From: Parvularculaceae bacterium
GTDB lineage: Bacteria; Pseudomonadota; Alphaproteobacteria; Caulobacterales; Parvularculaceae
Direction of reading: 5' to 3'
DNA length: 64,000 nucleotides
Assembly (NCBI GenBank): GCA_021776475.1
Contig: JAJFFV010000005.1
Location: forward strand, 1,426,001-1,490,000
Part shown: piece by piece, positions 17,718-25,221 of the stretch
How the letters are laid out: each line of letters begins with the position of its first letter
Numbering within the stretch: position 1 is the stretch's first letter
Translations under genes and position numbers: made by a program
The notes under the pieces: model-generated
Told to the model about the DNA's origin: nothing
Databases searched by the model: none
Seen by the model: the letters and a program-made list of their open reading frames with translations, nothing else

Positions 17718-19307
17718 ATGGAAAAAGCGGGCTTTGAACTTACCGGTGAGTGGCGCGACGGCGACGAGCACATTCTCTCGCAAGATGCGCTGACGTTCCT
17801 CGCGGCGCTGGTCGATAATTTTGCCGGTGAGCGGCAGCAGTTGTTGGCTGCCCGGCGTGAGTGGTCTGCGCGGATCGACGATGGGGCGTTGCCGGATTTC
17901 CGGGCGGATACGAAAAATATTCGCGAGAGTGACTGGCGTGTCGGAGTGCTGCCGCCAGCTCTTCTCGATCGGCGCACTGAAATTACCGGACCGGTTGAAC
18001 GCAAAATGGTCATCAATGCGTTGAACGCGGACGTGAAAGTTTTCATGGCCGATTTTGAGGATGCATTGTCACCAACCTGGCGCAATGTCGTTGAGGGACA
18101 ACAAAACCTGTATGATGCGATCCGGCGAGACATCAGCTACACTGACCCAAAGTCGGGAAAATACTATGAACTAAAAAGCGATCCGGCGATCTTGCTGGCC
18201 AGGGTGCGCGGCCTTCATCTCGACGAAAAACACATCAAGCGTGGTGGCGCAAACGTGCCCGGTGCACTTGTGGATTTTGGCCTGTACTTTTTTCACAACT
18301 GGCAGGCGCTGCTTGATCTCGGCCATGGACCATATTTCTACGTTCCAAAACTGGAACACGCGGAGGAAGCAAGGTGGTGGAACGACGTCTTTGTTTTTGC
18401 GCAGGAAAAAGTTGGCCTGCCGATTGGCTCCATCAAAGCAACGATGCTGATCGAAACGCTGCCGGCTGTTTTCGAGATGGACGAAATCCTCTTTGAGCTG
18501 AAGGATCATGCGGCGGCGCTCAACTGTGGCCGCTGGGACTATATTTTCAGTTATATCAAAACGCTGAAGAACCACCCCGACAGAATGCTGCCTGACCGGA
18601 CGGATGTCACGATGGGACAGCCATTCCTAGACGCCTATTCCCGTTTGCTGGTCAAAACCTGTCACAGGCGCGGCGCGCTCGCGATGGGCGGTATGTCCGC
18701 GTTCATTCCAAGCAAGTCCGAAGAAGAAAACCGGGTGGTTTTTGAAAAAGTCCGTGCCGACAAACAGAAAGAAGCTGACAATGGCCATGATGGCTCGTGG
18801 GTGGCGCATCCTGGTCTCGCCTCGGTGGTCAACGAAGTCTATGGCGCCGCGTTTGATGCAGGTGAGACGAACCAAACGCGCATCCTGAGAGACGGCGACG
18901 CACCCATACTGGCTGAACACCTGCTTGCGCCATGTGAAGGGGCCTATACGGATGAAGGGCTGCGTCACAACATTCGCGTTGCGGTCCAGTATATAGAAGC
19001 CTGGTTGCAGGGATTTGGTGCGGTCGCCATCTATGGCCTTATGGAAGATGCGGCTACAGCAGAGATTTCGCGAGCATCTACGTGGCAATGGATCAGGAAT
19101 GGGCCTGTTCTCGATAACGGAGAAACCATGACGGCTGATTATTTCAGTCATGTTATGGCGCAGGAAATCGAGACAGTTAAAAATCAATTTTCTGCTGAGC
19201 GCTGGGCATCCGGGCGGTTTGATGAGGCAATCAGTTTACTGGAAGATCTTTGTTTGCAGAAAGATTTTGCGGAGTTCCTGACGCTGGGGGCCTACGAAAA
19301 ACTCTAG
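17718..19307 (+). CDS. aceB: malate synthase A
   Basis: The 529-residue protein condenses glyoxylate and acetyl-CoA to malate in the glyoxylate bypass. The start at the ATG at 17718 has CTGGAGATGACGAC upstream; an earlier in-frame ATG adds non-conserved sequence. Family motifs are 'FMADFEDALSPTWRNVVEGQ' (about 112-131), 'LIETLPAVFEMDEILFELK' and the C-terminal 'YGLMEDAATAEISRASTWQW' that bears the catalytic region. Length matches malate synthase A rather than the longer G form. Isocitrate lyase (aceA) is not in the window. Confidence 0.95.
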   Translation: MEKAGFELTGEWRDGDEHILSQDALTFLAALVDNFAGERQQLLAARREWSARIDDGALPDFRADTKNIRESDWRVGVLPPALLDRRTEITGPVERKMVINALNADVKVFMADFEDALSPTWRNVVEGQQNLYDAIRRDISYTDPKSGKYYELKSDPAILLARVRGLHLDEKHIKRGGANVPGALVDFGLYFFHNWQALLDLGHGPYFYVPKLEHAEEARWWNDVFVFAQEKVGLPIGSIKATMLIETLPAVFEMDEILFELKDHAAALNCGRWDYIFSYIKTLKNHPDRMLPDRTDVTMGQPFLDAYSRLLVKTCHRRGALAMGGMSAFIPSKSEEENRVVFEKVRADKQKEADNGHDGSWVAHPGLASVVNEVYGAAFDAGETNQTRILRDGDAPILAEHLLAPCEGAYTDEGLRHNIRVAVQYIEAWLQGFGAVAIYGLMEDAATAEISRASTWQWIRNGPVLDNGETMTADYFSHVMAQEIETVKNQFSAERWASGRFDEAISLLEDLCLQKDFAEFLTLGAYEKL

Positions 19308-19402
19308 TCTGGACAGAGTTTAACCAAACTTGCGCTCTACACTATTAATTTCCCGGCACTGAGGTAGTCTGCTCCGGTTAAGCGCAGGCAAGGGGATCGG
19401 TT

Positions 19403-20023
19403 GTGAATAAGGGGATGCTTCAACTCGGTCCGCTTGGACAAAAAACATCGTCGGCTTTGCTCGCCATCGCATTGCTTGGCACGGGCTGCACAACGCCGCC
19501 AGCGGCGTGTAGCTGCAACCCGGAAACAGCTCTGCTTGAACCAGGTATAGCGCCGCCGCCTGTTGTCGCGCGCCAGGATAAAGAATTCTCGTCAGCTATT
19601 CTCCGTGCTGAACATTGGGCACCGGCCAGTCGCCTTGAAATGAAGCAGGCCCTTGTCCTGATCAATGATTTTCGCGAACAAAATGGTCTGATGCCTGTTA
19701 TGCCAGATGGCCAGCTTGCGAATATCGCGAAGGCTCACGCCAGAGATCTGGCGCAACAGGATCGAGTGTCACATACTGGAAGCGACGGCGCGTCTCTTGC
19801 TGCCCGCCTCGCGCGCGGTGGTTATGACCCTATCGTCGCTACGGAGAATATCAGTGCCGGTCAAAGGAATTTCGGCGAGGCGTTTGTGGCGTGGCAGGGA
19901 AGTGCGCTACATCGATCAAAACTGTTGGCAAAGGAAGTTAGCCAGATCGGGATTGCGTATATATATGATCCCACTACAGAATATAAAACATTCTGGACGA
20001 TGATTATGGCTGAACCGTTTTAG
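19403..20023 (+). CDS. CAP/SCP-domain lipoprotein
   Basis: The protein is 206 residues from a GTG at 19403, with AAGGGGATCGG upstream; an ATG at 19415 is an alternative. The signal sequence ends in a lipobox LLGTGC, so it should be lipid-anchored. The CAP (SCP/PR-1-like) domain covers about 75-200: 'NDFREQNGLMPVMPDGQLAN', then HARDLAQQDRVSHTGSDG with the conserved His, then TENISAGQRNFGEAFVAW. Bacterial CAP proteins are secreted and of unsettled function. The last 20 bases overlap the end of the convergent gtrA-like gene. Confidence 0.85.
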   Translation: MNKGMLQLGPLGQKTSSALLAIALLGTGCTTPPAACSCNPETALLEPGIAPPPVVARQDKEFSSAILRAEHWAPASRLEMKQALVLINDFREQNGLMPVMPDGQLANIAKAHARDLAQQDRVSHTGSDGASLAARLARGGYDPIVATENISAGQRNFGEAFVAWQGSALHRSKLLAKEVSQIGIAYIYDPTTEYKTFWTMIMAEPF

Positions 20024-20603
20024 TACATTTCGACTGGAAAACGACAAAACGGTTCCAGCAATAGGTTAGGACCGCCGCAACGCCGCTGGCGATAAAAAAC
20101 GCAGCTGTCGTTGACATGCTGAGAGGTGTCTGTCCCACCAGGTTCTGCGCCACAAACTCTGGCAGAACAGCAAGCACGCCGCGCCACAAATCGATCAGGA
20201 CCTGGCCACCCAGGGCGCTCATGGGACCACCGAGGAAGGTGAATACCTGCCCTTCGGTAAGACCGACAAGCAACCCTGTATGAATGCCTGCCGCCGTGAG
20301 CGCACCGGCAGCAAGAGCAATAAACCCGCTCAAATGTCCGTGCTTGCCGTCGAAGACAAAAAACCGATTCCCGGCGTAGGAGACGAAGATCGCACTACAA
20401 AATCCTAGCATATTGGCAACAACAAGAGATTGAATGACATTGCCTGATATCAGCAAGATCAAAACCAGATAGTGGACGATTGTTGCAACAATCCCGACCA
20501 GCGCGAAATTGCGGAAAGAGCGCAATGTCTCGATGATTTCCCGTGCGATCGACCGGGAAAGTACATCACTGCCTGGGTCTGCAATCTCTGCGGTTACGGT
20601 CAT
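20004..20603 (-). CDS. GtrA-family membrane protein
   Basis: The 199-residue protein has four hydrophobic segments and the GtrA-family hallmarks FALVGIVATIVHYLVL near the start and 'FVSYAGNRFFVFDGKHGH' in the middle, repeated as YCWNRFVVFQSK at the end. GtrA-type proteins are thought to flip or hand over undecaprenyl-linked sugars for cell-surface polysaccharide modification. It follows murD2 by 34 bases on the same strand, so it is probably the last gene of the murL-murD2 unit. That suggests, but does not prove, a role in envelope precursor handling. Confidence 0.8.
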   Translation of the reverse strand: MTVTAEIADPGSDVLSRSIAREIIETLRSFRNFALVGIVATIVHYLVLILLISGNVIQSLVVANMLGFCSAIFVSYAGNRFFVFDGKHGHLSGFIALAAGALTAAGIHTGLLVGLTEGQVFTFLGGPMSALGGQVLIDLWRGVLAVLPEFVAQNLVGQTPLSMSTTAAFFIASGVAAVLTYCWNRFVVFQSKCTKTVQP

Positions 20604-20637
20604 GCCTTAAATGTTCGGCAAAGAGGCAAACAAGGGG

Positions 20638-21987
20638 TTAATTTTTGGGCACGAAAGAGGTAAAAATTGCCGATCGTTCGGCGAAATTTGCATGCGGCGG
20701 GGCTGATGGAGCAGCGGGTGAGAAAAGGATCACTTCTCCTTGTTGGGCACCACTTTTTGCCGCGCCGACCATTTCTTCAAATGTTTCAAATGTCTGACAC
20801 CTACTGGCGGCGGCTGATTTTCTTACTTGTGAGGCAATCCGCGGGGCGGTTTGGCTAAACGCGTAAAGCCGGATGTGAGCGTTTGCGGCGCACAAATTGA
20901 TCAAATGGGTAAAATCCTGTCCCCTGTCGTTACCGCCCAAAAGCAAATGGATTGGGCTGCCCTGCCAGCGTGTTAAAGCCGAAATCGTCGCTTCGGGAAC
21001 GGTTGCGAGGGCATCGTCGACCCAAATGATGCCATCAGTGGAGGAAACGATGGTTTGCCGCGATGGCAAGCCCGGCCATTTCCCGAGATTGCCTTTGACC
21101 GCATTGACAGTTTCCTCAGGACAAAGAAGACCGCTCGCCAGACAAATCGCTATTGCCGCGCGCAGGGCGAGGACCATAGAGGGGGCAATAAAAGCATCAT
21201 TGAGTAATCCAGCGTTGATCGAAATTTCGTTATTCTTGATCTTGATGTTACTGTCCACGACACATGCGATGTCTTCGTAATACTGTAGTTTTGGTGAATC
21301 GTTCAGTATTGCTCCTTCTTGCGCTCTTGGCACAATGCCTGGCGCCGGTTGGTATTGGTTGAAAGGCCGTAGCTTATCCTTGTGATAAGCGGTGATGGAT
21401 CCATGCCAGTCTGTATGCTCTTTATAAAGATTGGTAACAGCATGAAAATGCGCGCTCGGAGGCAAGTCATGCATCATATAAGAAGACACTTCGACGATGC
21501 AGATTGTTTGGTCATCGACTTTAACCTCAAAGGGTGTGCGACCGATGTTACCAAGTTCAAGAGCCTTTTTGCCCGCCCAGCGAAGAATATGGGCTATCAG
21601 GCTCGTCGTCGTGCTTTTGCCCTTTGTGCCCGTGACGGTGATTGTATGCACCGGCGCAAGCTCGCAAATCCAGTACCCCGTCGGCGTTGTGTGCAAAATG
21701 CCTTGCCGCTTGATCTCCTCGAACACAGCGTTCGACGGCGAAATACCGGGGGAGCGCAAATAAAGCGTCTGGGAATGATCGGCCAAGCCGCAATCAAAAT
21801 CTTCTTCGGTTGAATGTTTCAGGCGGCTGTCCCGGGTCAGCGCATCCGGAAGCAGAGAGAATTTCTGTGCTGTGTCGATAACAGTGATCGCCGCTATCTC
21901 GGTCTCTACAAACCAGGTCAGTGCCGCCCGGCCTTCAACACCAAGGCCGTGAATGATCAGATGCTTGATGTTTTTCCTAGAGATCAT
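20638..21987 (-). CDS. murD2: MurD2: UDP-MurNAc-L-Ala--L-Glu ligase
   Basis: This 449-residue Mur ligase resembles MurD but sits beside murL, the arrangement described in Xanthomonas, where MurD2 adds L-Glu (not D-Glu) to UDP-MurNAc-L-Ala. The N-terminal Rossmann-like domain carries HGLGVEGRAAL; the central ATPase domain has VTGTKGKSTTT (about 118-128) and NLYKEHTDWHGS, where the family lysine and His ligand fall; the C-terminal domain contains LLLGGNDRGQDFTHL, as in MurD-like ligases. Its start overlaps the end of murL by 11 bases, which implies translational coupling. L-Glu specificity is inferred from the pairing, not from residues I can identify. Confidence 0.82.
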   Translation of the reverse strand: MISRKNIKHLIIHGLGVEGRAALTWFVETEIAAITVIDTAQKFSLLPDALTRDSRLKHSTEEDFDCGLADHSQTLYLRSPGISPSNAVFEEIKRQGILHTTPTGYWICELAPVHTITVTGTKGKSTTTSLIAHILRWAGKKALELGNIGRTPFEVKVDDQTICIVEVSSYMMHDLPPSAHFHAVTNLYKEHTDWHGSITAYHKDKLRPFNQYQPAPGIVPRAQEGAILNDSPKLQYYEDIACVVDSNIKIKNNEISINAGLLNDAFIAPSMVLALRAAIAICLASGLLCPEETVNAVKGNLGKWPGLPSRQTIVSSTDGIIWVDDALATVPEATISALTRWQGSPIHLLLGGNDRGQDFTHLINLCAANAHIRLYAFSQTAPRIASQVRKSAAASRCQTFETFEEMVGAAKSGAQQGEVILFSPAAPSAPPHANFAERSAIFTSFVPKN

Positions 21988-23341
21988 GGGCCGCGCTCAG
22001 GAAGACTTCCGGCACAAAATGCTTGCCCGCGGCGGCGAGGCCATCTTGCCAGAACTTGCTGAGCTGTTCTTCGCCGTTTTCATTCAGGACCAGGGGCAGC
22101 AAAGTGCGTACAATGAAACTGTCTTGCCAGGCGGCCATTTGGCCGAGGCGGAAAATGACAGCGCGGCATTCATTGATCGTGCCGACACAATCCCATGGTT
22201 TATTATCCGTCAACCCGCACAGTTCACGATAGATGGGCAATAACGCTTGTTTTTCCAGAAAATTGTCAGGGAAAATTCTGGTTGTTTCCTCGCGATCGAG
22301 AAACGGCGCCAGCAATAGCGACGTGAACGCGCATTTGGCACATGCGCCGCACCAGCGGGGTACGTCTTCTCCCGCTATCTGAAAATTGCGGTTGCAGCTG
22401 GTGAAACGTCCGAACGGCTGTTTCAGATTGGCAAAGGCGCGGGCAATCCAGATTTCCGAGAACGGACGGAGAATGGAGAAATATTCTGGTGCCCTTGGGT
22501 CTGCTGCGGCAATTGCATCGCGCAAATATGCTTCAAACTCGCTCGATTTGGAATATTGATGATTGGCGGCAACATCACCCAGATCAATTGTTGGCTCGTC
22601 AGCGGATCGCTCATTAGCAAAAATCACGAATTGTGCACTGGTCAGGCGGCCGAGAATAACCAGCATCAGTGAATTGATCGCCGTAATCGGAACATGCCCA
22701 TTATAGGCGCCTGCAGCGTTGACCTGACGCAGTTTCGGGTCAAGCTGGCGCTGCATAAATATCACCGGTTCACTGGCGCTTCGCTGGATGGCATCCCTTA
22801 CCTTATCTGACATCACAGCTGAACAAAGGCGTGATTTGATGCCTGCTTTTTTGACGATGGCGTCCGCTACATAGGAATCTTTGCCGCCGCCATAGGCAAC
22901 TAGGGCCTGCCGGGCATGCGCATCTGACTGTTCGCTGTGATCAGAGGCGCGGGCGTCGTTGCTGCTGCTTGTGCGAAAATTGATTTTGGGCGGGTAGGGC
23001 AAGCCGGCTCGAACGTAAAACTCCGCTAAGCCGTCTTGATAAAGACGAGAAGCAACACTCTTTGATGCATTGAGCTCTGCCCCGGCGGGCAATATGACTT
23101 CCCCTGCCGCTGCGCATTTGTAGTAGCTCACACCCAGGGCGACTTGCAAAAGGGAGAGCAAGCTGGCGAGCCCCTCGTCAACCCGATCCGCAAAACTCGC
23201 GCTCAATGATGGGAAGCTGACGGTTTCGCTGAACCGGCCAAATAGACTGCAATCGTATGAAAAACTGACGGCGGGCATCTCGGCCGATGCTTGCCAGCCG
23301 ACCATCTTAAAACACTCTGCCTGTTGTTCGGTTTGCGCCAT
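21977..23341 (-). CDS. murL: MurL: UDP-MurNAc-L-Ala-L-Glu epimerase
   Basis: The 454-residue protein matches MurL, which uses ATP to invert the terminal L-Glu of UDP-MurNAc-L-Ala-L-Glu to D-Glu and so bypasses glutamate racemase. Visible features are AYGGGKDSYV (151-156 the Gly-rich KDS, similar to a PP-loop), 'ANERSADEPTIDLGDVAANH' around 242-261, 'CNRNFQ' with Cys316, and the cysteine cluster WCGACAKCAF (Cys331, 334, 337), probably a structural metal site. Pairing and overlap with murD2 give independent support. No murI is in the window. The HTH regulator ends upstream on the same strand, 88 bases away. Confidence 0.85.
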   Translation of the reverse strand: MAQTEQQAECFKMVGWQASAEMPAVSFSYDCSLFGRFSETVSFPSLSASFADRVDEGLASLLSLLQVALGVSYYKCAAAGEVILPAGAELNASKSVASRLYQDGLAEFYVRAGLPYPPKINFRTSSSNDARASDHSEQSDAHARQALVAYGGGKDSYVADAIVKKAGIKSRLCSAVMSDKVRDAIQRSASEPVIFMQRQLDPKLRQVNAAGAYNGHVPITAINSLMLVILGRLTSAQFVIFANERSADEPTIDLGDVAANHQYSKSSEFEAYLRDAIAAADPRAPEYFSILRPFSEIWIARAFANLKQPFGRFTSCNRNFQIAGEDVPRWCGACAKCAFTSLLLAPFLDREETTRIFPDNFLEKQALLPIYRELCGLTDNKPWDCVGTINECRAVIFRLGQMAAWQDSFIVRTLLPLVLNENGEEQLSKFWQDGLAAAGKHFVPEVFLSAAHDL

Positions 23342-23430
23342 ACCGTCTTTCTATGCCGGCTTGTAGACTACGAGATAGAGCGAAATCGCCTCGCACGACA
23401 ATATGGCGCAATCATGGATGTGAAAAACGA

Positions 23431-24129
23431 TCAGTGAAACCGGATTGAGACCGATACTGTGCCGATAATGCCCGCCAGCTCATCAATATAAATTGCTTCA
23501 TGACTTGGGTCGCTGGAAAAGGGCTCAAGCCGAGACGGATTACGGCGCCAGCGTCGCAGGAGCGGGCCGCCGGATGGCAGTTTCAACAGGACGATATCGC
23601 CATTGACGGGTACGCGGTGACTGTAATCAACCACGGCTAGCGTGTTGCCTGGAAAAGCGAGGTTCATCGCCTCGTCGGTCACAAAAAAACCGAACAGCGA
23701 GTCGCTGCCTGAAGTTACGGGTATATAGTCCGTCGCCATTTCATGCAGGTCGTGAGCATGCTGATCGATCATCAGCATCGCATCCTCTAGCGTTACAATC
23801 GGCACATGAAAAAGGCCGCGGCGGATATAGGCGGCGGTTGGATGCTTGTCGCGTTCAGACGGGGAGCGCTCCCCACCAGCAAGCCATCCGAGCTGAACGT
23901 TCAGGGCCTCAGAAGTCTTTGCCAGCATCACCTGCCGTGGATCGTGAACACCGGATTCCCAGTTCGCCACAGTCGGCTGAGAGACCCCAAGCCGGGTGGC
24001 CAATTCCGCCTGGTTGAACCCTCTTTTTTTTCGCGCTTGCCGAATGCGCGAGCCAATCGAGCTGCTGTGATTCGAGATCGGATCAGTGGCACTCTCAGAT
24101 ACCGTTATTTGATTATCCAAATCGCTCAT
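23431..24129 (-). CDS. XRE-type repressor with LexA-like (S24) domain lacking the catalytic dyad
   Basis: This 232-residue protein has an N-terminal Cro/CI helix-turn-helix (about 28-85: RIRQARKKRGFNQAELATRL and 'SQPTVANWESGVHDPRQ') and a C-terminal S24/LexA-like beta domain (about 120-230). In self-cleaving members the Ser lies in G-D-S-M and the Lys in a V-K-R-L motif. Here the corresponding stretches read TDEAM and LLRRW, so the nucleophile is Ala and the base Arg. It should therefore regulate without autoproteolysis. It precedes murL-murD2-gtrA on the same strand and could be in that transcript. The upstream region is very A+T-rich. Confidence 0.85.
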   Translation of the reverse strand: MSDLDNQITVSESATDPISNHSSSIGSRIRQARKKRGFNQAELATRLGVSQPTVANWESGVHDPRQVMLAKTSEALNVQLGWLAGGERSPSERDKHPTAAYIRRGLFHVPIVTLEDAMLMIDQHAHDLHEMATDYIPVTSGSDSLFGFFVTDEAMNLAFPGNTLAVVDYSHRVPVNGDIVLLKLPSGGPLLRRWRRNPSRLEPFSSDPSHEAIYIDELAGIIGTVSVSIRFH

Positions 24130-24170
24130 ATTATTAGCTTGTCTTATATTTTATTAAAACTCAATATGAG
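24125..24170. promoter_or_regulatory. inverted repeat overlapping the regulator start codon
   Basis: CTCATATT at 24125-24132 and AATATGAG at 24163-24170 are exact 8-base inverted copies flanking 30 A+T-rich bases; the left arm covers the start codon of the leftward XRE/S24 gene. It may be an autoregulatory operator. The chance of such a repeat in A+T-rich DNA is not negligible. Confidence 0.3.
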
Positions 24171-24333
24171 TCGAACTTATAAACTGTATAAAAACCGGAA
24201 AATGATACAAAATCACAAATTTTTACCTATAATGTTATCAGAAAATATAGTTTTGTGCTGGACTCGCGGCGCCAAATTTGATTGCATACTTTCACAGGCA
24301 ACGAAGGCTTAAGCCGCAGCACGGAGGATCAAG

Positions 24334-24531
24334 ATGTCCGATTACTGTAACAAAGATGGTGCATCGCGTTTGAGAAACACAATCGTTGAGTTTTGGAAGA
24401 AAAAGGGTTTTGCGGTTGATATAGAGATGGTCAATGAGGGCTTTGTCTCAACCATGCGCTCGGCGCGGACAGATTTGCGCAGCAATATGGTGAACGGTAT
24501 GCCTCAGCACACCCAAATGGAATGCGTGTAG
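24334..24531 (+). CDS. small conserved hypothetical protein
   Basis: The 65-residue protein begins MSDYCNKDGASRLRNTIVEF, with GGAGGATCAAG directly before the ATG, a strong ribosome-binding site. The pattern 'FWKKKGFAV' then 'RSARTDLRSNMVNGMP' looks like a small protein found in other alphaproteobacteria, often annotated as hypothetical. It is soluble, basic and has no cysteine cluster beyond one Cys. An intrinsic terminator lies 29 bases after the stop. The gene is convergent with gph, with no base between the two stops. Confidence 0.7.
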   Translation: MSDYCNKDGASRLRNTIVEFWKKKGFAVDIEMVNEGFVSTMRSARTDLRSNMVNGMPQHTQMECV

Positions 24532-25221
24532 TCAAGCAACCGCTAATATTTCTGAGATTAGGCTCGGTAACTCCTCAAATTTCTGGAATTGCCGAGCCTT
24601 TTTTATGTCTGCTTCGTCAAACGAGCCATAACCAAAAGTCGCAATCAAACAAGGCATCTCAGCGGCAAGCGCAGCGTTAAGATCGGTGATCGTATCTCCG
24701 ATCATAATGCCCCGATGCATGCCGGTGCGCCTCAGGCAGCAGAGCAAAGGCGCCGGGTCGGGCTTACATACTGGTAAGGTATCCCTGCAGATGATGCAGT
24801 CAAAACAGCCCTCAAGGTCCAGTGCCTGCAGCAATGGATAAGTCAGTTCTTCGCTCTTGTTGGTGCAAACGGCAAGACTGGCGCCAGACTTTTTGAGCTG
24901 CGCGAGGGTGCGGGTGCAACCTGAAAACGGGCGGCTTTGATCGGCGAGATGTATTTTGTAGTAGTCGATAAATTGATCAACATGGGTCTGGAGCTGTTGT
25001 TCGGGCAGATCGGTGATGCCATGGGCAGCAAAGCCGTCTACAAGAAGTGCCCTTGCACCATGTCCCACGAGCTGGCGGACCTCTGCGGCAGGCAGAGGGC
25101 CATATCCTTCTGATTGCAGAACAACATTCATCGCTGCCGCAAGATCGGGGGCGCTGTCCACGAGGGTGCCGTCGAGATCGAAAATGACGACGGTGTCGCT
25201 GAACGGGAAGGGTTCAGGCAT
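24532..25221 (-). CDS. gph: phosphoglycolate phosphatase
   Basis: This 229-residue HAD-superfamily hydrolase dephosphorylates 2-phosphoglycolate. Motif I is VIFDLDGTLVDSAPD (nucleophile Asp and the second Asp), motif II falls in LAVCTNKSEE, the loop Lys in CKPDPAPLL, and motif IV in MIGDTITDLNAA. The start is the ATG at 25221, with AAGGAG upstream. The last 25 codons overlap, on the other strand, an intrinsic terminator for the small convergent gene. Other HAD phosphatases of this size exist, but the motif set fits Gph best. Confidence 0.87.
   Translation of the reverse strand: MPEPFPFSDTVVIFDLDGTLVDSAPDLAAAMNVVLQSEGYGPLPAAEVRQLVGHGARALLVDGFAAHGITDLPEQQLQTHVDQFIDYYKIHLADQSRPFSGCTRTLAQLKKSGASLAVCTNKSEELTYPLLQALDLEGCFDCIICRDTLPVCKPDPAPLLCCLRRTGMHRGIMIGDTITDLNAALAAEMPCLIATFGYGSFDEADIKKARQFQKFEELPSLISEILAVA
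24560..24604 (+). terminator. intrinsic terminator inside the gph 3' coding end
   Basis: AGGCTCGGTAA at 24560-24570 pairs with TTGCCGAGCCT at 24589-24599, an 11-pair stem with a single G-T, an 18-base loop and then six T's at 24599-24604. It would end plus-strand transcripts of the small gene that stops at 24531, while also encoding gph residues on the other strand. Confidence 0.8.

Follow-up and report, generated by a model that had tools for sequence, protein, structure and literature searches.

The stretch of DNA analysed here, the window, comprises 64,000 nucleotides of the genome of a Parvularculaceae bacterium (GCA_021776475.1, contig JAJFFV010000005.1, positions 1,426,001 to 1,490,000) and contains adjacent genes for MurL and MurD2, a pair known from Xanthomonas, followed by a gtrA-like gene (Table 1). 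The three genes form an array in which murL and murD2 overlap by 11 bases (21977-21987) and murD2 is separated from gtrA by 34 bases. All three are open frames, exactly as stated in the initial annotation of the window, and the identities that it had assigned from motifs are upheld by matches to the profiles NF041275, TIGR01087 and PF04138.

Table 1. Features of the murL-murD2 locus (positions in the window) and the MurD homologue gene encoded elsewhere in the same genome (genome:contig:positions)
Feature	Positions	Strand	Evidence or remark
murL, 454 aa	21977-23341	-	open frame; NF041275 312 bits, E 3.7e-93
murD2, 449 aa	20638-21987	-	open frame; TIGR01087 231 bits
gtrA-like gene, 199 aa, probable small membrane protein	20004-20603	-	PF04138 58.7 bits
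MurL PP-loop-like motif GGGKDS, residues 151-156	22874-22891	-	
MurL cysteine cluster C316, C331, C334, C337 (C-x14-C-x2-C-x2-C)	22331-22396	-	predicted zinc site
MurD2 E190, equivalent of E. coli D182 and X. oryzae E197	21418-21420	-	L-Glu specificity
MurD2 R355, equivalent of E. coli K348 and X. oryzae R358	20923-20925	-	L-Glu specificity
Helix-turn-helix (HTH) and S24 repressor-like gene, upstream of murL	23431-24129	-	HTH_3, Peptidase_S24; conserved neighbour
CAP-domain (DalA-like) gene, convergent with gtrA	19403-20023	+	PF00188; NF052539 78.7 bits, cut-off 200 not reached
dcw murD homologue, 474 aa	G000:C6:256152-257576		no internal stop

The pair belongs to the known MurL-MurD2 kind

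MurL aligns with NF041275 over model positions 4-441 of 447, and its score is below the cut-off of 700 bits of this equivalog, which is named for Xanthomonadales, as are the scores of all 20 matches in the family Parvularculaceae. MurD2 scores over the TIGR01087 cut-off of 212 bits. In X. oryzae MurD2, specificity for L-glutamate (L-Glu) has been ascribed to E197 and R358, which correspond to D182 and K348 of E. coli MurD, and the double change of E/R to D/K switched the enzyme from L-Glu to D-glutamate (D-Glu) (PMC8788868). Using E. coli MurD as the ruler, the window MurD2 has E190 and R355 at both specificity sites and keeps the equivalents of N138, E157, S159, H183, K198 and T321. Across the family, the first site is E in 13 of 14 MurD2 proteins, with D in G049, while it is D in all 30 canonical MurDs; similarly, the second site is R in 14/14 MurD2 proteins and K in 30/30 aligned canonical MurDs. 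The 30 canonical MurDs are those whose loci were fetched rather than those of all genomes without MurL, and the over-long MurD2 frame of G050 was trimmed to its last 470 residues.

Of the 20 family genomes that have MurL, 19 carry murL next to murD2, and in the remaining one, G016, a contig ends inside murL; therefore, the pairing is not a matter of chance. As in the X. oryzae pathway (XOO_1319/XOO_1320), murL and murD2 are adjacent, MurD2 has the E/R pair, MurL can be aligned nearly end to end, and the genome has neither MurI nor Dat over the respective cut-offs. By contrast, the window pair has the 11-base overlap and the following gtrA, and its MurL reaches only 312 bits against the Xanthomonadales model. 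In total, we conclude that the window pair is a member of the known MurL-MurD2 kind. The pair that the initial annotation had singled out in an alphaproteobacterium is therefore real, but its occurrence in Alphaproteobacteria, including Parvularcula, was already in print (PMC8788868).

MurL-MurD2 and Dat-MurD replace each other in Parvularculaceae

We surveyed 62 Parvularculaceae genomes, 20 of which have MurL and 42 of which do not. MurI (TIGR00067, cut-off 147 bits) was not detected over the cut-off in any of the 62 genomes, with weaker matches in 15 of them; in the window genome, which is 99.5% complete, the search returned a single match of 27 bits. The same search was positive in 8 of 14 control genomes. 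Dat (NF005209, cut-off 320 bits) was detected over the cut-off in 38 of the 42 MurL-less genomes and in none of the 20 MurL-bearing genomes, and the MurL-less genomes without it (G002, G039, G041 and G045) are each less than 90% complete. Therefore, we conclude that Dat with MurD and MurL with MurD2 replace each other in Parvularculaceae, with G056 (see below) as an exception. A rapid MraY tree covering 50 genomes places all but one of the 29 MurL-less genomes in a single clade, which also holds G017 and G031; the remaining one, G056, sits inside Parvularcula.

The question raised initially was whether the pair is used instead of MurI or beside it. The pair does seem to be used instead of the usual route; however, the displaced partner is Dat together with a working MurD. 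A replacement of MurI by MurL was rejected for Parvularculaceae, because MurI was over the cut-off in 0/62 genomes and Dat is the partner that was lost.

The MurD homologue between mraY and ftsW lacks key catalytic residues

The division and cell wall (dcw) cluster of the window genome has the order murE, murF, mraY, murD homologue, ftsW, murG, murC, murB, ddl, ftsQ and ftsA, in which mraY and the Mur ligase genes were named by profile and the other genes by eye from their translations. The MurD homologue scores 195 bits to TIGR01087, i.e. below the cut-off of 212 bits, and has A, D, A, A and G at the positions of D182, H183, K198, K319 and K348, so that none of these five residues of canonical MurD is present; R302 is also missing.

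To place this protein among its relatives, the stretch after mraY was read in all 20 family MurL genomes and in G056, and was cut short by contig ends in G013 and G061. Of the 20 MurL genomes, 17 carry a MurD-like frame after mraY (a live one in one genome, a contig-cut one in another), and in 15 of the 20 it is a degenerate open frame (one contig-cut, in G061). Together with the protein of G056, these 15 make up a degenerate set of 16, in which the over-long frame of G055 was trimmed to its last 480 residues. In the 30 canonical family MurDs, N138, E157, S159, D182, H183, K198, N271, K319, T321, K348 and S415 are each present in 30/30. In the degenerate set, D182, H183, K319 and K348 are each present in 0/16, K198, N271 and T321 each in 2/16, S159, N138 and S415 each in 1/16, and E157 in 12/16. 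Retained are G114 and K115 of the P-loop and D317 (each 16/16) as well as R302 and H267 (each 14/16). G017 represents a 17th, milder case with E157K, D182V, K198M, K319S and K348Q.

The AlphaFold2 model of the degenerate MurD, built from an alignment of 14 that includes G017 and the live MurD of G031, has a predicted local distance difference test score (pLDDT) of 86 and a predicted template modelling score (pTM) of 0.75, and its first structural matches are MurD crystal structures (E. coli 8v8w, E 2e-23, query template modelling (TM) score 0.74). Thus, the degenerate homologue shares with the E. coli-type dcw MurD the slot between mraY and ftsW, a similar size, the P-loop and, in a model whose alignment holds one live MurD, the predicted fold. 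It differs in that D182, H183, K319 and K348 are gone in 16/16 and K198 in 14/16, and in that the sequence around S415 and F422 is thoroughly altered. The window organism also differs from X. oryzae in that its dcw cluster still holds a degenerate MurD, on which the passages of PMC8788868 cited here are silent.

The live dcw MurD of G031 has all the listed residues except S415, which is P, and the G031 MurL groups with MurLs of Rhizobiales and Sphingomonas. From this grouping, the G031 MurL is a separate acquisition, so that G031 looks like the state before the loss. G031 (a Marinicaulis metagenome-assembled genome (MAG); locus G031:C229:6000-20196) has no Dat over the cut-off, and is possibly a recent takeover or a mixed MAG (4% contamination). 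In G012 (contig C79) and G013 (contig C308), mraY lies near the contig start and is followed by neither murD nor ftsW, different frames taking their place; here, the dcw cluster seems to be broken.

Because neither MurI nor Dat was detected over the cut-offs and the dcw MurD is without key catalytic residues, the MurL-MurD2 pair looks like the only route to D-Glu in the cell from which the window stems, and this cell most likely depends on it. The combination of an intact murI and a canonical murD, which would have spoken against the pair as the sole route, was searched for in the genome and not found. It could be argued that the pair works beside a second route, since the genome encodes two racemases of the Asp/Glu superfamily (over the cut-off of the asp_race model) and a class IV aminotransferase with 163 bits to NF005209. 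However, one of the two racemases is the 27-bit match to TIGR00067, far below its cut-off, and 21 of the 38 Dat-bearing relatives have a protein of 152-170 bits to NF005209 beside Dat. As such like-scoring proteins coexist with Dat, the aminotransferase is probably not Dat. Moreover, the would-be user of free D-Glu, the dcw MurD, lacks the key residues, while MurD2 has the L-Glu pair. We consider a second route in this cell very unlikely.

The degenerate MurD is under constraint

Ratios of nonsynonymous to synonymous substitutions (dN/dS) were calculated by the method of Nei and Gojobori. For the degenerate MurD, dN/dS is 0.063 between Aquisalinus flavus (G010) and A. luteolus (G011) and 0.075 between G059 and G060, while for live canonical MurD it is 0.059-0.138 (six pairs with dS <1, of 91 pairs from 14 proteins). 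In the A. flavus/A. luteolus pair, MurD2 has a ratio of 0.061, MurL of 0.097 and MurG of 0.125. Because its ratios are within the range of live MurD, the degenerate MurD does not look like a gene in decay but like a conserved pseudoenzyme.

Beyond the family, 26 genomes from 67 MurL loci were sampled; 25 of these have an mraY match and the stretch after mraY was read in 23, those of G070 and G087 being left unread. In 22 of these 23 stretches, no MurD-like frame was detected after mraY and ftsW follows directly. The 23rd, that of Woodsholea maritima, has a dcw MurD with all the listed residues in addition to MurL and MurD2, and no Dat was detected in this genome at E <=1e-50. The idea that bacteria with MurL generally keep a degenerate MurD was therefore rejected, the gene being gone in 22/23 and intact in W. 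maritima, and we conclude that keeping a degenerate MurD is, within the stretches examined, a trait of Parvularculaceae. In two Geminicoccaceae of this sample, G080 and G084, Dat over the cut-off and MurL occur together, with no MurD between mraY and ftsW; in these bacteria, both D-Glu routes may coexist.

These observations bear on the possibility that the dcw MurD is merely decaying or persists as a spacer through which the translation of ftsW is coupled to that of mraY. In several members, the stop of the dcw MurD gene overlaps the start of ftsW; moreover, the gene is absent after mraY in G014 and was not found in G012 and G013. However, the dN/dS values of 0.063 and 0.075 are within the range of live MurD and MurD2, the frame is present in 17/20 family MurL genomes, and the outside clusters in which mraY is followed by ftsW indicate that a spacer is not needed in general. 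Decay or a spacer function is therefore decidedly unlikely.

Alternatively, the dcw MurD homologue could be a neofunctionalised enzyme with a new substrate. This would be in line with the intact P-loop, with the retention of D317, R302 and E157 at the frequencies given above, with 46 columns showing conservation in 13 or more of 15 members (G061 omitted), and with some conserved residues that are unusual for live MurD, e.g. G331, D346 and G448 (numbered as in the protein of the window genome). By contrast, the lost positions do not converge: nine different residues occur at D182, eight at H183 and seven at K198, two members having K. On balance, we regard a new enzymatic function as unlikely. 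The MurL-MurD2 pair itself was known; the degenerate dcw MurD looks new, and no earlier report of it was found in the passages retrieved from open-licence PubMed Central papers.

MurL as a predicted PP-loop ATPase resembling QueC

Xanthomonas MurL catalyses a one-way epimerisation in which ATP is consumed and AMP is released, and an adenylate intermediate is the hypothesis of its discoverers, who described MurL as a protein without known conserved domains and with an unclear mechanism (PMC8788868, PMC5808125). In an alignment of 12 MurLs, G151, G153, K154, D155 and S156 as well as the cysteines of the C-x14-C-x2-C-x2-C pattern are invariant (12/12). Among 86 MurLs, 19 from the family and 67 from the outside loci (drawn from the best 80 of 211 loci), the G-x-GKDS motif is present in 86/86 and WCxxCxKC in 85/86.

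The AlphaFold2 model of MurL has a pLDDT of 87.8 and a pTM of 0.90. In a Foldseek search with this model, only four PDB structures matched at E <0.001, all of them QatC or QueC, including QatC (9y01; E 5e-6) and QueC (3bl5; E 1.6e-4, target TM 0.72, query TM 0.34). Weaker matches include Cap9 (9nto; E 1.7e-3) and, among those with E >0.01, ThiI, argininosuccinate synthase and TtuA. The match at rank 6, a UDP-glucose 4-epimerase with E 4.4e-3, was discounted because it reflects a Rossmann-type similarity of a general kind. Thus, MurL has a PP-loop motif on what is, in a predicted model, a HUP-type core. A profile comparison of MurL with E. coli QueC by hhalign gave E 0.0013 for a 41-column match located at the cysteine motif, with a probability of 18%, while two controls gave 0.72 and 0.075; the four-cysteine pattern, for which a zinc site is predicted, is thus conserved in sequence and aligned to that of QueC at this probability. 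The zinc site of QatC, formed by C334, C354, C357 and C360, has the same C-x2-C-x2-C end as the MurL pattern (PMC13279940).

Searches with MurL sequences were less informative. Nothing matched among solved structures at E <=1, and Pfam gave nothing convincing for the 12 MurLs, i.e. MR_MLE_C in 1/12 at 0.0074, DUF7411 in 3/12 (best 0.16) and three other families in 1/12 each. A PADLOC match in 1/12 (E 0.011) was set aside.

In total, these observations support the prediction that MurL is a PP-loop ATPase of the QueC type whose cysteine pattern also resembles that of QueC. PP-loop enzymes convert ATP to AMP and pyrophosphate (PPi), and QueC activates a carboxylate. A PP-loop nature would therefore explain the AMP-forming, one-way chemistry of MurL; likewise, the release of AMP by PP-loop enzymes and the activation of a carboxylate by QueC fit the AMP seen with MurL and the adenylate hypothesis. 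MurL would thus resemble QueC, QatC and Cap9 in its predicted fold, in a motif like SGGxDS, in cysteines ending in C-x2-C-x2-C and, with respect to QueC chemistry, in an AMP-forming carboxylate activation. It differs from them in its length of ~450 aa with extra parts and no Pfam match over the cut-off, in its UDP-muramoyl-dipeptide substrate and in the outcome, which is that of an epimerase. No earlier statement connecting MurL with QueC or with PP-loop proteins was found among the open-licence PubMed Central papers listed; PMC2922099, a candidate for such a statement, was rejected because it holds only the term 'Mur_ligase'.

gtrA is a lineage-restricted accessory

The product of the gtrA-like gene has the GtrA/DPMS domain (PF04138, cut-off 26.1 bits), for which a flippase role is predicted. 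The linkage of gtrA to murD2, noted initially in the window, was surveyed in the 18 family loci that can be read beyond the end of murD2 (in G031, for only 343 bases). It is real and recurs in 7/18 (G000, which is the window genome, G012, G013, G014, G055, G060 and G061), and all five of the products checked in relatives match PF04138. However, the linkage is patchy: gtrA is absent beside murD2 in 11/18, including A. flavus and A. luteolus, which are two of six congeneric genomes, and was not found at any of the 67 outside loci, part of which are truncated.

The suggestion of a pathway extended by GtrA is weakened by these absences. A GtrA acting as a working third member, e.g. by moving a lipid carrier or an intermediate, would be consistent with its position on the same strand 34 bases after murD2 and with the recurrence of the linkage in genera g1 and g9 and in one Parvularcula. 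Nevertheless, besides the loci that lack gtrA, the substrate of the published MurL and MurD2 is UDP-linked and no membrane step is involved (PMC8788868), and such a function is most improbable. We conclude that gtrA is a local, dispensable and lineage-restricted accessory, and not part of the definition of the pathway.

Proposed route to D-Glu and role of the retained MurD

Taken together, we consider it likely that D-Glu in this bacterium is made only via the MurL-MurD2 pair, that MurL is a PP-loop ATPase, that Dat was lost, that a dead dcw MurD was kept, and that GtrA is dispensable. The D-Glu of peptidoglycan would be made solely by addition of L-Glu and its subsequent inversion, in which MurL would adenylate the alpha-carboxylate of the added L-Glu (ATP to AMP and PPi) and thereby ease removal of the alpha-proton. 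Of these steps, ligation and one-way epimerisation with formation of AMP are published for Xanthomonas enzymes, the adenylate is the hypothesis of the authors of that work, and the PP-loop fold is a prediction of the present analysis. The ancestor probably relied on Dat and the dcw MurD. After the takeover, Dat would have been lost, and the dcw MurD would have lost the residues for Mg and the carbamate-lysine, for UDP-MurNAc and for D-Glu. Retained under constraint and with its P-loop, the dcw MurD would most likely persist as a non-catalytic subunit of a complex of Mur ligases, MraY, MurG and FtsW.

Since fold, P-loop and genomic place are kept without the chemistry, we infer that the dcw MurD is most simply a non-catalytic part of a complex. 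Recognition of MreB, MraY and MurG by Mur enzymes has been reported, together with the proposals that Mur ligases join MraY, MurG and MreB in a large cytoplasmic assembly and that RodA and FtsW could belong to a higher-order complex (PMC4929429). We lean towards, without strongly favouring, the idea that the dcw MurD binds nucleotide as a pseudoenzyme and has its own task within the cytoplasmic wall-synthesis complex, e.g. gating MraY, MurG or FtsW. If so, MurD would have a useful non-catalytic role that is normally hidden behind its essential catalysis and that was exposed by the takeover by MurL and MurD2. The structural role of a ligase is inseparable from its catalysis as long as cells cannot do without the enzyme. 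In this lineage, the two seem to have been separated naturally, catalysis having moved to MurD2 and the old MurD having been kept under constraint without an active site, which makes the question testable in Parvularcula lutaonensis and Aquisalinus flavus. Similarly, the PP-loop reading provides a concrete, checkable mechanism for the epimerase.

Several observations weigh against parts of this proposal. For MurL, the MurL-normalised TM scores to QueC and QatC are only 0.34 and 0.40, and the hhalign match, at 18% probability, does not cover the PP-loop. The asp_race-type racemases could make some free D-Glu. G056, a MAG of the Parvularcula branch that is 89% complete (locus G056:C302), has Dat and a degenerate dcw MurD but no MurL match. 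Compared with 12 family Dats, the Dat of G056 shows 45-51% identity, and the G+C content is 57% on the Dat contig stretch versus 62% on the dcw stretch, so that G056 may reflect contamination or be a real exception. Outside the family, Dat is over the cut-off in 2 of the 26 MurL genomes, both Geminicoccaceae. With respect to the dcw MurD, the protein of the window genome still has E157, S159, N271 and T321, and mraY is directly followed by ftsW in G014, so that the pseudoenzyme can be lost in one branch. In G012, G013 and G014, no second MurD was found at E <=1e-40, a threshold that also misses the degenerate MurDs of Parvularcula. Finally, the degenerate MurD is less constrained in the A. flavus/A. 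luteolus pair than MraY (0.019), FtsW (0.042) and MurC (0.038), and in the divergent pair G051/G054 its dN/dS is 0.291, compared with 0.160 for FtsW and 0.172 for MurC, with dS >1 for the degenerate MurD and FtsW.

Neighbouring genes

The order of the neighbourhood is glmS-glmU-gph-HTH/S24-murL-murD2-(gtrA)-CAP. A scan of positions 19300-24700 for promoters and terminators gave fewer sites than shuffled sequences (2 versus 4.5 and 4 versus 6.1, respectively) and was uninformative. A homologue of the HTH/S24 gene is present at 15 of the 20 family MurL loci as fetched, and from its frequent position upstream of murL, this repressor-like gene may be a regulator of the pair. The convergent CAP-domain gene overlaps the 3' end of gtrA by 20 bases; a homologue lies near murD2 at 10 of the 20 loci as fetched, and a link of this gene to the wall or to division is possible.

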